Below, one piece after another: positions 2,360 to 40,430 of a DNA stretch of 64,000 bases. The translations under genes and the position numbers were made by a program. Under the pieces are notes generated by a model. The model was not told where the DNA came from. It made no database searches and was given only the letters and a program-made list of their open reading frames with translations. The first letter of the stretch is position 1. Each line of letters starts with the position of its first letter. The stretch is from Paenisporosarcina sp. HGH0030 (GTDB lineage Bacteria; Bacillota; Bacilli; Bacillales_A; Planococcaceae): assembly GCF_000411295.1 (NCBI RefSeq), contig NZ_KE150421.1, forward strand, positions 1,035,645 to 1,099,644. The letters run 5' to 3'.

Positions 2360-4159
2360 CTACATAACGCGTTTGAACATTTTTTCAATTTCGTATGTGG
2401 AGAAATGAACAATTACAGGGCGGCCGTGCGGACATGTAAATGGATGCTCGGCATGTTTAAGATCTTCCATCAGTTTGACCATATCTTCTCTCGTCAAATA
2501 GTGATTGGCTTTAATGGAACGTTTGCAACTCATCATAATGGCTGCATCTTCGCGTAATTTCTTGATGTCCGTTTTACGGGTTGTCAGTACTTGTTCAACG
2601 AGTTCTTTTACAATCTCTTCTTCGAACCCTTTCGGAAACCATACGGGGTACTCCCGCACAATAAACGTTGTCGGGCCGAACTCTTCGAGAAAAATCCCAA
2701 CTTCTTCAAGTTCATTTGCCGATTCTTTTAATCGAAGTGCTTCGTCAGCAGAATAATGCATGGACAGAGGGATGAGCAGAGATTGTCTTTCATTCGACTG
2801 CACATCTCCTACCTTCTCACGGAAAAATTCATATTTAATCCGTTCCTGTGCCGCATGTTGATCGATTAAGTAAAAACCATCAGCACTTTGGGCTACGATA
2901 TACGTTCCGTGGATTTGTCCGACGATATCCAACTCCGGAAAAGGTTCCTTGGACGATACTGGTACCAGATGGTCGATTGATGGCTCAGGTGAAGATTGGA
3001 CCGGTTCCATCTGCTCTTTCACCATTAACGATTCTGGACTTTTATTGAAAGTCTGCATCGGCTGGAATGGAGCAGATGTTGTTGGTGTTGGTGTTGGTCT
3101 TGATTTCCACAAATCCATTTGTTCGCTTGGCGCAACCATCTTTTTCGGTTTTTCTGCAATTTCAGGTGCCCGCATAACGGATCTCAAACTCTTCCGAATC
3201 GTTTCCTCGACCAACTGTTGCAACTCTTTTTCTTTGCTCAAACGAATTTGTTGTTTCGAAGGATGAACGTTAACATCTGTTAAATATGGATCGCCTTCTA
3301 TATGAAGGATAACCAGTGGAAAGCGTTCAATCGGCAAAAACGTGTGGTAAGCATTGACGATTGATTGCTGGACACTATAATGTTTTACCCAACGTCCATT
3401 GACAAATAGAGTCAGGTAATTTTTCGAAGCGCGTGTGATTTCCGGTAATGACGCATAGCCATGGATTCGGTAATCTGCTGATTCCCCTTCAAAAGGAATC
3501 ATTTTTTTTGCGATGGCCATGCCATAAATAGCTGCAACGACTTGTTGCAAATCACCCCGACCATTTGTATGAAGAAGCACTTGTTCTCCATGTGTCAGTT
3601 TAAAAGCGATAGACGGATAGCATAGTGCAAGTCGATTAAGTAAATCAATGATATGCCCAAGTTCCGTCTGGATCGTTTTCATATATTTCAAACGGGCCGG
3701 AGTATTAAAAAACAACTGCGACACTTTGATATCTGTACCTTTACGAAGTGCGCCTGCCTGTTGTTTTTTTAAGTGACCCCCTTCTATCTCGATGCTTGTC
3801 CCTGTGGAAACACCGTCTGAAGTCCATAAAGAAACTTTGGATACCGATGAAATACTGGCCAGTGCTTCTCCACGGAATCCGAGTGTTCGAATTCGGAACA
3901 GATCATGTTCATTTGAGATTTTGCTCGTCGCATGTCGTGAGAATGAAAGAATTGCATCCTCTCCATCCATCCCGCTTCCGTTATCCGTTATTTGAATGGT
4001 CTGCAGTCCCGCTTCTTCCAAATACACATCAATGGAAGTGCTGCCAGCATCAATTGCGTTCTCAACGAGTTCTTTCACGACGGAAGCAGGTCGTTCCACC
4101 ACTTCTCCCGCAGCGATTTTATTTGATAAAGGTTCGTCCATTAATCGTATTTGTCCCAT
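2360..4159 (-). CDS. mutL: DNA mismatch repair protein MutL
   Basis: A 599-residue MutL ATPase/endonuclease that couples mismatch recognition by MutS to strand incision. The N-terminal GHKL ATPase shows ENAIDAGS, DNGSGM and TLGFRGEAL (residues about 33-100). A proline/serine-rich linker spans about 345-400. The C-terminal domain carries the endonuclease metal motif DQHAAQERIKYE and later SCKRSIKANH and CPHGRP, as in organisms without MutH. ATG start behind AAGGAG, 24 bp after mutS, so the two form one operon. Length and layout are normal for the family. Confidence 0.98.
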   Translation of the reverse strand: MGQIRLMDEPLSNKIAAGEVVERPASVVKELVENAIDAGSTSIDVYLEEAGLQTIQITDNGSGMDGEDAILSFSRHATSKISNEHDLFRIRTLGFRGEALASISSVSKVSLWTSDGVSTGTSIEIEGGHLKKQQAGALRKGTDIKVSQLFFNTPARLKYMKTIQTELGHIIDLLNRLALCYPSIAFKLTHGEQVLLHTNGRGDLQQVVAAIYGMAIAKKMIPFEGESADYRIHGYASLPEITRASKNYLTLFVNGRWVKHYSVQQSIVNAYHTFLPIERFPLVILHIEGDPYLTDVNVHPSKQQIRLSKEKELQQLVEETIRKSLRSVMRAPEIAEKPKKMVAPSEQMDLWKSRPTPTPTTSAPFQPMQTFNKSPESLMVKEQMEPVQSSPEPSIDHLVPVSSKEPFPELDIVGQIHGTYIVAQSADGFYLIDQHAAQERIKYEFFREKVGDVQSNERQSLLIPLSMHYSADEALRLKESANELEEVGIFLEEFGPTTFIVREYPVWFPKGFEEEIVKELVEQVLTTRKTDIKKLREDAAIMMSCKRSIKANHYLTREDMVKLMEDLKHAEHPFTCPHGRPVIVHFSTYEIEKMFKRVM

Positions 4160-4183
4160 AGGGTCCGCTCCTTTCTGAATCGT

Positions 4184-6760
4184 TTATTTACCGATTTTTT
4201 GTTGCAATTCATATAAGAACTGAAGTGCCTTCATCGGTGTTGTTCCGGAAATATCCAAATCTCTTATGGTTGTCAGGACATCCTCTTGCTGAGGTTCTTT
4301 TGAAATATTCTCAGCATCTTTCTTCGTTTCTTGGAAGAATGTTAATTGTTCATTTACAGAAGACTGTGTATCTTTAAGATTATGTTCCTTACCAGTTTCA
4401 AGCTCTTGAAGAATGTCTCTTGCCCTAGCAAGAATCGGTTCAGGTAACTGAGCCAGTTCCGCCACATGGATCCCGTAACTCTTATCAGCTGGACCATTTT
4501 TCACTTTGTGTAAAAAGACCACTTTGCCACTCTGCTCGACCGCAGCTACATGAACATTGCGTAATTTATCCAGCTGTTTTTCGAGCTGCGTTAATTCATG
4601 GTAGTGTGTTGAAAATAAGGTATTTGCACGAATTTCATGATGAATGTATTCCATCATTGCTTGAGCGAGAGCCATCCCATCGTAAGTGGACGTACCCCTA
4701 CCAATTTCATCGAACAGCAAGAGGCTGCGTTCAGTCGCATGCGTTATTGCGTATGTGGATTCCAGCATTTCGACCATGAAGGTACTTTGACCAGCTGCTA
4801 AATCATCCGCTGCACCAATACGTGTAAAAATTTGATCGGTCACAGGCAGCAATGCTTGTTCTGCCGGCACGTAGCAACCCATTTGCCCCATAATGACCGT
4901 AATAGCCACTTGTCGCATGAATGTACTTTTACCAGACATATTGGGTCCTGTAATGAGCAACATATTCTCTTCGGATGTCAGGGCACAATCATTCGGTACA
5001 TAATGCTGTTTGTTCATCATTTTTTCAACTACAGGATGACGTCCGTTAACGATATTCAGTTCCAAACCGTCATGAAACTTTGGTTTAGTCAGTCGATATT
5101 GGTCAGACACTTCAGCAAAACTCGTAAATACATCGAGTTCACTTACCTTGGCTGCCAGTTGCTGAACTTGTGGAATGTATTGTTTCACTTGTTCACGTAT
5201 GTCGACGAAAAGAGAATACTCCAATGCTAAACTTTCTTCTTCTGCTGTTAAAATCAAAGACTCTTTTTCTTTCAGTTCATCCGTAATATATCGTTCCGCA
5301 TTAGCTAACGTTTGTTTTCTTTCGTAGCGTGCCATATCAGCCAAGTGAATATTTGATTTTGTGATTTCAATGAAATACCCAAAGATACGGTTATAGCCTA
5401 TTTTAAGCCCTTTGATGCCAGTCCGTTCCCGTTCCTTCAACTCGAGAGCAGCAATCCAGTCTTTGCCGTTCTTCTTCGCATAGCGGAGCTCGTCCAAGCG
5501 TTCGTGAAAACCGTCACGGATGATATCCCCTTCTTTAACTGAAAGAGGTGGATGATCGGCGATTGCTTCTTGCAGCAAACTCAAAAGCTCTTCACACTCA
5601 TCTAACTGGTCAGCCGCTTTTTTAAGCGCAGGTTTACCACTTTCAATCAATTGGGTTTTAATCAATGGAATTTGAAGAATCGATTGTCTTAATTGACTTA
5701 AGTCCCGGCCACTAGCAGTGCCAAAAGAAATGCGACCAATCAAACGTTCCAAATCATATACTTCTTTTAAGCTTTCTCGAATATCCGCTCGGGAGAAATA
5801 GGCTTCCAGCATTTCAGTGACGATTTCCAAGCGCTCTTCAATTTTCATACGATTTGCTAAAGGTTGATGCAACCACTGCTTTAATTTGCGTCCACCCATA
5901 GCGGTCATTGTTTCATCGAGCAACCAGTATAGTGAACCTTTTTGATCACCACCACGAATGGATTGAACCAGCTCTAAATTGCGTTTGGAATGAAAATCTA
6001 TCGTCAAAAGCTCCTCGCGTTCCTGGAATTGGAATGCTTGAATATGCTCAAGTGAACGTTTTTGTGTGCGGTGTAAATAGTTCACCAATCGTCGACAAGC
6101 TCCACGCACCTCGACTGGATTATGTTCCGTAAAGGATTCATCAGCTTGTGCTTCGAGTTGGGTCTCTTCGATGGATAGTAAAATGGAATGCACGTCAGCC
6201 AAATCTGACAGTAGCACAAACAGTTGCTCAGGTACAACGAGTTCCCGGATGGATAACGTTTGCAATTCTTGAATTAAATTCTTTTCAGTGCCTGTTAATA
6301 TCGCGCTAGTACCTTCGCCTGTCGATAAATCCAAATAAGCATAAGCAAAGCGATTTTCATCCAGTTCTTCTGCCGAAGCGATAAAATGATTGCTTTTGCC
6401 ATCCATATTTTTACCTTCAATAATCGTACCAGGTGTAATTAAACGAACAACTTCACGCTTAACGACTCCTTTTGCTTGTTTAGGATCTTCCGTTTGCTCA
6501 CAAATTGCCACGCGGTGACCTTTTTGAATGAGTGTTTCTATATAATTTTGCGCTGCGTGATGTGGCACACCACACATAGGAATGCGGTCTTTACTTCCTC
6601 CATCACGACTCGTCAGTGTGATTTCAAGTATTTGTGATGCATTGATGGCATCATCGAAAAATAATTCATAAAAATCGCCCAATCGGAAAAACAAAAAGGC
6701 GTCTGTATATTCGGATTTAACTTGTAAGTATTGTTGAATCATAGGTGTATAGGTGTTCAT
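4184..6760 (-). CDS. mutS: DNA mismatch repair protein MutS
   Basis: An 858-residue MutS1 that binds base mismatches and small loops and signals through ATP to MutL. The N-terminal mismatch-binding FxE motif lies in GDFYELFFDDA, the Walker A is GPNMSGKSTFMRQ and the Walker B is LLFDEIGRGTSTYDG. The start is set at MNTYTPMIQQYL, which has AGAGG 7 nt upstream; an ATG 12 codons earlier lacks a ribosome-binding site. The gene lies between cotE and mutL, the usual Bacillales order. The 267-bp gap upstream holds the cotE terminator and presumably the mutS promoter. Confidence 0.98.
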   Translation of the reverse strand: MNTYTPMIQQYLQVKSEYTDAFLFFRLGDFYELFFDDAINASQILEITLTSRDGGSKDRIPMCGVPHHAAQNYIETLIQKGHRVAICEQTEDPKQAKGVVKREVVRLITPGTIIEGKNMDGKSNHFIASAEELDENRFAYAYLDLSTGEGTSAILTGTEKNLIQELQTLSIRELVVPEQLFVLLSDLADVHSILLSIEETQLEAQADESFTEHNPVEVRGACRRLVNYLHRTQKRSLEHIQAFQFQEREELLTIDFHSKRNLELVQSIRGGDQKGSLYWLLDETMTAMGGRKLKQWLHQPLANRMKIEERLEIVTEMLEAYFSRADIRESLKEVYDLERLIGRISFGTASGRDLSQLRQSILQIPLIKTQLIESGKPALKKAADQLDECEELLSLLQEAIADHPPLSVKEGDIIRDGFHERLDELRYAKKNGKDWIAALELKERERTGIKGLKIGYNRIFGYFIEITKSNIHLADMARYERKQTLANAERYITDELKEKESLILTAEEESLALEYSLFVDIREQVKQYIPQVQQLAAKVSELDVFTSFAEVSDQYRLTKPKFHDGLELNIVNGRHPVVEKMMNKQHYVPNDCALTSEENMLLITGPNMSGKSTFMRQVAITVIMGQMGCYVPAEQALLPVTDQIFTRIGAADDLAAGQSTFMVEMLESTYAITHATERSLLLFDEIGRGTSTYDGMALAQAMMEYIHHEIRANTLFSTHYHELTQLEKQLDKLRNVHVAAVEQSGKVVFLHKVKNGPADKSYGIHVAELAQLPEPILARARDILQELETGKEHNLKDTQSSVNEQLTFFQETKKDAENISKEPQQEDVLTTIRDLDISGTTPMKALQFLYELQQKIGK

Positions 6761-7570: not shown

Positions 7571-7636
7571 AGCCATCCTCCTTCGTTCGATTCCTTTTCA
7601 TCATATGCAGGCTGTGCCCATTAGGTGATAGGAATT

Positions 7637-7722
7637 GTGGAAAGCGCCAATTTTCTCGACACCGCTTGTTTCCGCTTGAGGGCTTGAAGCTTATGAGCGT
7701 GCTGGCGCTTGGAACTAGACAT
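7637..7722. repeat. Single copy of a dispersed intergenic repeat
   Basis: The 22 bases at 7701-7722, beginning GCTGGCGCTTGGA, match 39344-39365 at 21 of 22 positions. The preceding bases (7637-7700) are hairpin-prone, as in the 39-kb copies. It lies in the 242-bp gap between ricA and cotE and contains no open reading frame that I can support. Confidence 0.6.
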
Positions 7723-38121: not shown

Positions 38122-38922
38122 TTAGATATCTTTAGCTGATTCTGTCAAACATTTAAACAATATTTTTGATGCATCTTCTTTCAAAAATTGCCCTGGCAAA
38201 GAAGTACAGAGGCGATAGCATTCAGCATAATCGCCCTCCAATTCTAAGCAGCCAGGAGCGGAAGCAATATCATAAAACCGTTTGCTGGTTTTTAGTAACG
38301 ATTGATAATCTTCTGTTAACCATTTCGCAGGAATTGTGTTGATGAATATTGCCTGATCACAGGAAATTCCTTTTTCTAATTTTTTCACTTCGTAGCCCAT
38401 CGCCTGAGCTTCAGCCAATTGGACTGGTGAGCGTACGACTATCAGTGGATGTGCATCCATCCGTTTAAGCTGTGTCGCCAGCAATTTTGCTACTCGCCCG
38501 AAACCGGATATCATAAATTGTTTGCCTGCAACGGTTTCATGTTCTTCTAGATAATAGGCAGCAATAAATCCTTCTGCCGTTAACTTTGCATTCAACCAAA
38601 TAAATTGTTCATCTTCAAGGTAGGCTACTGTATTCAGTTCACTTGCTTCAAAAAAGCGTGTCCACTCTGGAGATAATTTTCCGATGAAACATTTTTTTAC
38701 GTTTTGAAAAAATTCCATTCCAATTGTATCGGTTACAATTTCAAGTGGCTGAATAGGTAAGACCATGATTTCTGGTTGAAAAGACAACAAATCCCGTTCC
38801 ACTTGATAACTCCATGCTTTGGATGGGATATATAATACTTGCTCGTCAATGTTTTTCAACAAAGTAGCAAGCTTTTCCATGCGAGGATCCGTACCTATGA
38901 CACACCATTTTCGGTTCGTCAT
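38122..38922 (-). CDS. spoVFA: Dipicolinate synthase subunit A (divergent)
   Basis: The NAD-binding subunit of dipicolinate synthase (also called dpaA), here 266 residues, shorter than B. subtilis (about 297), mainly in the N-terminal half. The Rossmann motif is GFGRVAKLLATQL (about 138-150), and INTIPAKWLT and YDIASAPGCLE follow the family. Start overlaps ymxH by ATGA. The pairing with spoVFB makes the call firm despite divergence. Confidence 0.88.
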   Translation of the reverse strand: MTNRKWCVIGTDPRMEKLATLLKNIDEQVLYIPSKAWSYQVERDLLSFQPEIMVLPIQPLEIVTDTIGMEFFQNVKKCFIGKLSPEWTRFFEASELNTVAYLEDEQFIWLNAKLTAEGFIAAYYLEEHETVAGKQFMISGFGRVAKLLATQLKRMDAHPLIVVRSPVQLAEAQAMGYEVKKLEKGISCDQAIFINTIPAKWLTEDYQSLLKTSKRFYDIASAPGCLELEGDYAECYRLCTSLPGQFLKEDASKILFKCLTESAKDI

Positions 38923-39188
38923 ATGGATTGATCCGCATGTAGATGAGACGTCTTAGTGAAGAGTATCCGATGTTCACCGATAAGGACGATATCTTCCCAA
39001 GCAATGTAGACATTTTGACTGGTTGATTTCGATTTAAAGGGCCGATTGCCTTGTTCTTTTAATACGAGAAATCCAATGATTTTTCCACTCGTTGGCTCAA
39101 ATAGTAATTCAGTATCAGCAAGCAATCCAAATCGTTTGCCGTCTTCAACTTGGATTAATTCTTTTACCGCCAATTCTGATAGCAACAT
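38919..39188 (-). CDS. ymxH: YmxH, YlmC/YmxH-family PRC-barrel protein
   Basis: An 89-residue protein of the YlmC/YmxH family with a PRC-barrel-like fold (LSELAVKELIQVEDGKRFGLL). B. subtilis has it at the same place before spoVFA. ATG start with GGAGGAG upstream. Biochemical function unknown; spore-linked by context. The normal neighbour mlpA is separated by a 1.5-kb insertion. Confidence 0.85.
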   Translation of the reverse strand: MLLSELAVKELIQVEDGKRFGLLADTELLFEPTSGKIIGFLVLKEQGNRPFKSKSTSQNVYIAWEDIVLIGEHRILFTKTSHLHADQSI

Positions 39189-39250
39189 ATGACTCCTCCT
39201 CCATGTTCATCTCCTTAAATATATGCAAAAAAAGACCACATGTTCACACG

Positions 39251-39590
39251 AAAAGCAGAAAGCGCTACTTTAGCTCGACTCCGACGGTGGAAGAAACGAA
39301 TCGGAAACCCGTTTCCGAATGAGGTTCTGAAGCGGAGGTGCGAGCTGGCGCTTGGAGCTAGACATCACGAAATGTGAAGATGGCCAATTTAGACCGACGC
39401 CGGCGCTGGAAGGGCCGATTCGAAAGCTTGCTTTCGAAAGAGGTTTAGGAGGGAAGGCGAAAGCGCGACATCGTGTCGCTACGCCTTCATGACCCACATC
39501 CTGTGGGCCCAAGCTTAGGTGCGGTCTGGCCTTCGGAGCTAGACATCAAGAAATGTGAAGAAGGTCATGTTAAACCAACTTCTACCGTGG
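39251..39590. repeat. Tandem array of hairpin-rich intergenic repeats
   Basis: Two and a partial unit, about 120-180 bp each. Unit starts resemble GACCGACGCC...TGGAAG at about 39273, 39391 and 39572. Unit ends share GGAGCTAGACATCA then GAAATGTGAAGA (39354 and 39535 on, 181 bp apart). Internal hairpins include CGGAAAC/GTTTCCG, TTCGAAAGC/GCTTTCGAA, GCGACA/TGTCGC and CCCACA/TGTGGG. No gene in the 39189-39726 gap. A related copy lies at 7637-7722. Confidence 0.75.
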
Positions 39591-39607
39591 AAGGTGTTAA
39601 GGACAAA

Positions 39608-39726: not shown

Positions 39727-40311
39727 TCAAACTGGTTTGCTACTTTTCTCAAGAAGTAATGCTCTATGTTCTTTTGCCAGGGTCATCAACACAAATTTAT
39801 TGGACTTAATCAAATTATTAATTCTATCTGCTTCGTAACATGCACTATTGTATAAAGTGTTATCAATTATTCCGACAGCTAACGCATCTTCGAGTTCATC
39901 AGCATCTAACTGAATAATTTCTCCTGATGGTAGTACAACAATATCTAGAAATAAGTCGTCCAACCAAGGTATATCATTTTCACAACCATTGCTTTGACAG
40001 ATATCAATATACCACTGAACAACCTCGCCTTTAGAATCGAACATCGTTGTTAATGAATGGCTTTTTCCACTTGGGAAATGTTGTAGCCAACTATAACCGT
40101 CATTAACAATACAAACATTTCTTTCACCGTATTTAACAAATAACGGCTCTGAAACACGATGAACTTTTAGTAAAGTAACATATCCTTGAAACTCTTCGGT
40201 ATCAAGAAAAGATTGTATATATTCTCTTTTTGTTACTCTCTTCCATCCTGAACGGTCACCATATTTCCTTTTTAACAAGTTCTCAACCCCTAAAAGAAAA
40301 TACACTCTCAT
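39727..40311 (-). CDS. DUF402-domain protein
   Basis: About 194 residues with a DUF402 (NtdP-like) domain: VCIVNDGYSWLQHFPSGKSH, MFDSKGEVVQWYIDIC, DDLFLDIVVLPSGEIIQLDADEL. The family includes nucleoside di/triphosphatases; the acidic motif region (DLFLD, LDADELEDA) fits metal binding. The start is uncertain: an ATG at 40311 lies 2 nt from AAGGA, and a GTG two codons in lies 8 nt from it; a longer frame runs to 40404. The gene is inserted between ymxH and mlpA, which are adjacent in B. subtilis, and is flanked by structured repeats. Confidence 0.75.
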   Translation of the reverse strand: MRVYFLLGVENLLKRKYGDRSGWKRVTKREYIQSFLDTEEFQGYVTLLKVHRVSEPLFVKYGERNVCIVNDGYSWLQHFPSGKSHSLTTMFDSKGEVVQWYIDICQSNGCENDIPWLDDLFLDIVVLPSGEIIQLDADELEDALAVGIIDNTLYNSACYEADRINNLIKSNKFVLMTLAKEHRALLLEKSSKPV

Positions 40312-40430
40312 ATTCCTTGTTAAACTAACTGGTTTTAGTAATTTAAGAAGGTAGTGTAAAAATGGATACGTACTTAATGAATGATAAGTTTCAATGATTG
40401 GCAATCAGTCAATTGTATCAGCATCTCTAA

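Follow-up and report, generated by a model that had tools for sequence, protein, structure and literature searches.

BOX elements of Streptococcus combine constant ends with exchangeable internal modules. The ends of GTAG REPs often supply a stop codon (PMC3733652), and 40 to 51% of the copies of the bcr1-bcr18 repeats of Bacillus cereus lie within an mRNA in two strains (PMC3446304). Bacillaceae-1 (RF01690) has been listed as a candidate RNA (PMC2864571); its strand is uncertain, and CsrA binding has been proposed for its reverse complement (PMC4333381). No published description of the repeat analysed here was found in the open-licence literature, in which the listed text matches to its core sequence were off-subject by title.

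The window, i.e., the whole stretch of 64,000 nucleotides analysed here (G000:C1:1035645-1099644), comes from a 3.52 Mb genome in five contigs, referred to below as G000. It holds an array of hairpin units at 39249-39594, in which units 1 and 2 lie head-to-tail on the + strand, and a distant copy. The features are as follows, with scores from the covariance model R1, which was built from 15 ungapped 117-nt units, and from a broader model, R2:

39249..39365, + strand: unit 1, a complete 117-nt hairpin (R1 126.4 bits, R2 91.4 bits; alignment and pair counts), with its head at 39249-39257, 5′ bulge at 39267-39271, apical hairpin at 39301-39318 and tail block at 39354-39365

39368..39546, + strand: unit 2, a composite in which the 5′ and 3′ parts of the unit surround a nested Bacillaceae-1 (R1 73 bits end to end, R2 42.6 bits)

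39442..39507, + strand: the nested Bacillaceae-1 RNA motif (RF01690), full-length (model 1-67 of 67), 55 bits against a gathering score of 35

39549..39594, + strand: the 5′ portion of a truncated third unit, covered by the direct repeat at 39511-39594 (76% identity); this piece alone gives no R1 or R2 match

7631..7722, + strand: a decayed single copy 31.6 kb off, at G000:C1:1043275-1043366 in genome coordinates, with a tail block one base different (R1 37.3 bits, R2 26.1 bits)

The array is flanked by an 89-aa ORF (38919-39188, minus strand) and the gene for a DUF402 protein (39727-40404, minus strand), and a protein encoded near it shares 94% identity with a Paenisporosarcina quisquiliarum protein, on which basis the bacterium is assigned here to Paenisporosarcina. 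In the place of the DUF402 gene, the P. quisquiliarum locus has a different and shorter sequence.

The original prediction described GGAGCTAGACATCA-type blocks 181 bp apart, variable nested hairpins and a 22-base core shared with a distant copy, and this observation is confirmed as correct, if understated. The spacing is real, with 39330-39413 repeated directly at 39511-39594 at 76% identity; it is 181 here because the insert enlarges unit 2 to 179 nt, and other arrays of the family are tandem with a period of 117 to 120 bases. The 22-mer at 39344-39365 agrees with 7701-7722 at 21/22 positions, and 0/100 shuffles matched at ≤3 mismatches. The nested hairpins are real as well: the fold of 39249-39600 has a z of −2.14, with an equally good fold in 3/100 shuffles, and the extra hairpins of unit 2 are the Bacillaceae-1 module. 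For the outer unit, Rfam gave no gathering-score match in the window or at five loci of three other genomes, and a search over unit 1 (39249-39365) gave no match at E up to 1, Bacillaceae-1 included. The suggestion of a structured-RNA family is half borne out, in that one nested module is a published candidate RNA. A hit to the S10-Clostridia leader at 39407-39481 (24.2 bits, below the cut-off of 35.1; E 0.0073) was dismissed as chance.

The repeat is present in many copies. A DNA search of the genome gave 49 matches and R1 gave 65, which merge into 52 sites and are mostly intergenic; a separate R1 search counted 58. The seed set of R1, termed A2, comprises 15 of 21 basic units; four that nearly duplicate others were excluded, as were two that align poorly (L027 and L028, which were aligned first). 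In the alignment, the unit is one long imperfect hairpin with a constant head, AGAAAAGCG, a constant tail, GGAGCTAGACAT, and a conserved internal region around GGAAG/GAAGC; its stems are 12-18/99-105, 24-34/89-98, 44-49/75-80 and, at the apex, 53-59/64-70, with a 5-nt bulge on the 5′ side between the first and the second of these. Judged by eye, the ends of the unit are not inverted copies of each other. The bases preceding the head, at the 38 of 52 sites where it is readable, are A/T-rich, which is not decisive. A second internal module, about CCTTTGCGACGAGTAACCGCAGGAGCAAGG, was also noticed inside units at L189, where it is in tandem, and at L166, L160 and L240 (about 1900-1933).

The pattern of constant ends with changing stems, which the original prediction had noted, is sustained by strong covariation within the genome, within the genus and in other genera. 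In the defining set, 92.1% of cells pair, as compared with 27-48% in slid controls, and 18/33 pairs change on both sides. Because this structure was read from the defining set itself, it was tested on units of other species, using 18 of 93 matches (set A4), all ungapped 117-nt units lying outside the structure definition. These 18 units, all from other species within the genus, have 95.1% of their cells paired, as compared with 24-48% in slid controls, and show two-sided changes in 21/33 pairs. When A4 was shuffled, the measure of further pair types was reached by 41/500 shuffles and the other four measures by 0, in controls that leave relatedness uncorrected. RNAalifold, applied to 19 units with 64% mean identity, 17 of them from other genera, predicted 28 pairs, 27 of which covary. 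The compensatory changes support one fold, although a folded DNA strand would satisfy the same test.

The wobble pairs bear on this choice between RNA and DNA. G.U pairs are rare, accounting for 25/1021 standard pairs in the unit sets, and 29 comparison tRNAs taken from fetched loci have 41 G.U among 627 bracketed pairs. Such scarcity is what a DNA hairpin would lead one to expect, more than an RNA with a function would, and the RNA form is therefore not claimed as the selected one. One alternative is a hairpin that works at the DNA level, as a site where a chromosomal protein binds or carries out recombination, or as a substrate of hairpin-dependent recombination, with transcription being incidental. 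This reading agrees with two-sided changes that run nearly all from one Watson-Crick pair to another, with the occurrence of both orientations and with the changes in array length and modules described next. As a separate observation, unit hairpins and Bacillaceae-1 hairpins are both G.U-poor (about 1 to 3%) next to the tRNAs of the fetched loci (about 6.5%).

Change at fixed sites was followed in G041, which is classed as the same species as G000, at 22 sites pairable by their flanks, i.e., 18 chosen as stop-abutting and four others. With flanks 94 to 100% identical, an R1 match was found in G041 at 21 sites and a shortened remnant at one (430392), a cleanly empty site being seen at 0/22. The number of units differs between G000 and G041 at four sites (1837087, 1861832, 438671 and 25348), the interior length differs at four more (430392, 463810, 1497733 and 1850022), and a unit has been replaced in place at two, namely 399020 (77.6% identity) and 2302937 (82.6%, with a Bacillaceae-1 insert). 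At the window locus, G000 has two units, whereas G041 shows four R1 matches plus one further Bacillaceae-1. Unit 1 is the same in both genomes and the insert is missing from unit 2 of G041, whose array continues with a Bacillaceae-1 standing alone, then a composite unit and a fourth one. To the eye, window unit 2 carries an insert closely similar to that of the G041 composite unit, suggesting exchange, in one direction or the other, among units of a single array. In P. quisquiliarum, the array locus retains a decayed head only.

Among the stop-abutting sites, an R1 match was found at 17/18 in G041, 7/18 in G005 and 4/17 in G004, counts in which losses and gains are indistinguishable because the sites were chosen as filled in G000. 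No clean target duplication and no empty site with clean junctions was found at the orthologous sites of 18 insertions, and the evidence therefore falls short of transposition itself. The proposal of a mobile or recombining REP/MITE-like element accordingly divides into two parts: the recombining-element reading largely holds, as same-species genomes differ in array length, modules and in-place replacement, whereas membership in REPs or MITEs is unsupported, with no helper found among Y1 transposases and reverse transcriptases and no clean duplications. The condition under which that prediction would have been given up, namely no other copies, no covariation and no polymorphism, does not describe this family, given its many copies, strong covariation and differences between strains.

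The placement of the copies is strand-specific. At the 52 sites of G000, the upstream ORF, as called by a simple longest-ORF script, is in sense at 27 and antisense at 24. At 20/27 sense-ORF sites, the start of the unit falls between −7 and +3 nt relative to the stop codon, two of the 27 upstream ORFs being 429 and 1185 nt off and possibly spurious. By eye, the genes ahead of the stop-abutting units at C1:2479794 and C2:7975 resemble ssb and rocA. After exclusion of one of the 27 sites with a spacer over 700, 20/26 sites with a usable spacer are at the stop, as compared with 3.6 expected under uniform placement. None of 22 unit ends came to lie ≤10 nt from an antisense gene's stop, and of the 24 units preceded by an antisense ORF, 6 have their beginning ≤20 nt from the start codon of that ORF. 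At several sites, the stop codon is completed by the first bases of the unit. Where orthologous genes lacking a match were inspected by eye, most of them stop at the same codon, so no truncation by the repeat is visible; the exceptions are 112376 and 12761, where the G005 gene ends one codon earlier, and 2302937, where the last codons differ.

In other genomes, adjacency to the stop, counted within −11..+6 nt, a wider range than that used for G000, is weaker. It was found at 14/27 loci in one set, in which some loci are orthologous to G000 sites, at 2/18 in a second set, of which, by eye, six copies sit inside arrays and three within or beside rRNA spacers, and at 3/10 in a third. The 16S-23S spacers of three genomes also contain sense copies matched by a model (L081 and L094 in G001, L241 in G164, L242 in G122), those of a fourth contain one by eye (L248), and the unit at L078 lies 4 nt behind a tRNA-Met. 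Copies of equal score elsewhere in G001, G164 and G122 may represent further rRNA operons. Since many copies begin at the stop of the upstream gene, they would lie in a 3′ untranslated region, and the repeat is probably transcribed.

These placements count against the DNA-level hairpin, as a symmetric DNA site does not explain an abutment to stops that is found at 20/27 sense sites and at 0/22 antisense ones, and we regard that reading as unlikely. They speak for a host-serving structured RNA or 3′-UTR element, kept at stops to regulate mRNA stability or translation termination, a reading with which the sense-only abutment, the units in rRNA spacers and behind tRNA-Met, and the excess of G.U over A.C cells on the given strand (14 vs. 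7 in A2, 11 vs. 1 in A4) agree. However, the R1 match is gone at 11/18 and 13/17 orthologous stop sites in two other species, 24/52 sites follow an antisense ORF, and G.U pairs are rare overall, so that a host-serving RNA, too, has only a small share of our confidence.

The range of the repeat is wider than first estimated. R1 matched in 113/200 genomes of the family, representing 15/19 genera, and in 0/16 genomes of other families, which had suggested a repeat confined to the Planococcaceae. This was rejected on the basis of R2, which finds the repeat in 48/299 genomes and 26/118 genera of the class, 25 of the 48 genomes lying outside the family; two of these outside matches (G289 and G432) were read by eye. 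Carriage by phages or plasmids was likewise rejected, with no match in the phage or plasmid collections.

A helper that would mobilise the repeat was sought in the genome among Y1 transposases and reverse transcriptases. The Y1 transposase model (PF01797) gave 0 matches in G000, and the reverse transcriptase model (PF00078) gave 0 matches in G000 and in G006, a genome with 42 R1 matches; spread by a reverse transcriptase of its own was rejected, as the genome has none. Relatives carrying the repeat do encode long, weakly scoring Y1 proteins, taken as RAYT-like, one of which was checked (218 aa, Y1_Tnp 58.3 bits). This would suit a REP-type element moved by a RAYT, or a miniature element derived from IS200/IS605, as would the foot-bulge hairpin, the constant tag at one end, the arrays and the unit edge at stops, as in GTAG REPs (PMC3733652). 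However, besides the lack of a Y1 transposase in G000, 14 fetched Y1-transposase loci of relatives, a set that excludes their short IS200-type loci, show no R1 or R2 match at E up to 1, and in 4/5 cases examined (L264, L265, L270 and L271) the Y1 gene is bracketed by inverted repeats of other sequence. A RAYT/IS200 helper is thus unsupported in G000 and at the 14 loci of relatives, which makes such an origin very improbable. As neither a Y1 helper transposase nor a clean target duplication was found, REP and MITE describe the repeat by analogy, not by membership. The long Y1 (RAYT-like) genes of the Planococcaceae loci L264, L265, L270 and L271, together with the inverted repeats around them (GGTGCCACC, GAACCGTCCCCTTGCTTC, GGTGCCAGGTCCCCAC and another type), are candidate Gram-positive REP systems in their own right.

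The nested module was followed separately. Bacillaceae-1 is present in 22 of 41 genomes searched, and in the loci examined its settings are the present unit, one or more further hairpin repeats as judged by eye, and the position directly behind tRNA-Met; at L018, for example, tRNA-Met ends at 2349 and Bacillaceae-1 starts at 2350, followed by the repeat unit. One such further host (L213, L214, L220, L228, L233, L237 and L238) is a larger repeat of another kind, GCGGGAACAGCACGAGCTGAAGGCCCCG ... CCCGAGGAGACTGAAGCCGTGCCCGCGAAA, which is presumably common in Bacillus genomes, and an apparently module-free copy of it was seen in L119 within 3950-4760. A count over 32 distinct rows, with eight loci excluded (L216, L226-L231 and L234), gave 6 G.U against 11 A.C, too few to choose a strand. 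The idea that Bacillaceae-1 in the repeat serves, through its opposite strand, as a CsrA sponge (the proposal of PMC4333381), which its RTCCT-type loops (AGGAY on the complement) and the occurrence of CsrA in 20/22 genomes with the module against 12/19 without it would favour, was rejected as hardly credible because G004 and G007 have 20 and 66 copies of Bacillaceae-1, yet no CsrA match. Overall, a CsrA match was found in 32 of the 41 genomes searched, with G004 and G007 among those without one, and G007 has the most Bacillaceae-1 copies. On the favoured reading, Bacillaceae-1 would be a passenger module, hosted by these units and by other hairpin repeats.

Taken together, the repeat is probably a dispersed, non-autonomous, modular and recombining hairpin repeat, for which a manner of spread and a role after transcription are proposed. 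During copy spread, a trans-acting factor may have recognised a folded single strand, either DNA or RNA, with its constant ends, and present-day copies would change mainly through homologous recombination between units. The transcribed hairpins would act, if at all, after transcription, as structures at 3′ ends or in spacers that could affect stability, processing or ribosome run-off. Going further, the repeat might represent a new class of mobile repeat in Bacilli that depends on structure and has no known transposase, placed in sense at 3′ ends, whether of coding or of stable-RNA sequences (stops, tRNA-Met), as if guided by the transcript or the terminating ribosome, and offering a docking host to modules such as Bacillaceae-1; this extension is speculative, and we hold it to be quite doubtful. 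As far as the searches go, the repeat family, its range, its hosting of Bacillaceae-1 and its strain-level change at fixed sites are new. A high-copy repeat, found by R2 in 48/299 genomes of the class, thereby gains one anatomy and a search model. Because contact with stops is strand-specific and arrays change between strains, both mobility and 3′-UTR function can be tested directly, in bacteria that are not known to be pathogenic, and the search for the function of Bacillaceae-1 is reframed, as the motif is often a module within larger hairpin repeats.

Compared with described systems, the module at 39442-39507 is a Bacillaceae-1 RNA by score; it covers 66 of about 300 bases, and the outer 117-nt unit is not Bacillaceae-1. 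The repeat resembles REPs and BIMEs in its imperfect palindromes, intergenic position, arrays and edges at stops (PMC3733652, PMC2817692), and contact with stop codons, being known for GTAG REPs, is therefore not new in kind. In contrast to the 20-40 bp REP palindrome with its GTAG or GTGG head, the present unit has 117 nt, its own head and tail and no GTAG-type head, and its arrays run in the same orientation; unlike RAYT-linked REPs, it occurs in a genome without a Y1 transposase and has no copy beside the 14 Y1 genes of relatives. Like bcr1-bcr18, it is an interspersed intergenic repeat of a Bacilli group; bcr1-3 are called MITE-like (PMC3446304), whereas the present repeat could not be shown to be so, in a comparison by description. 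With YPAL/RU-2 of Yersinia, it shares internal rather than terminal inverted repeats, the absence of TA ends and, probably, read-through with upstream genes, PMC2229807 describing YPAL as co-translated; YPAL has target duplications and filled and empty sites, neither of which was found cleanly here. With BOX elements, by description, it shares constant ends and exchangeable modules.
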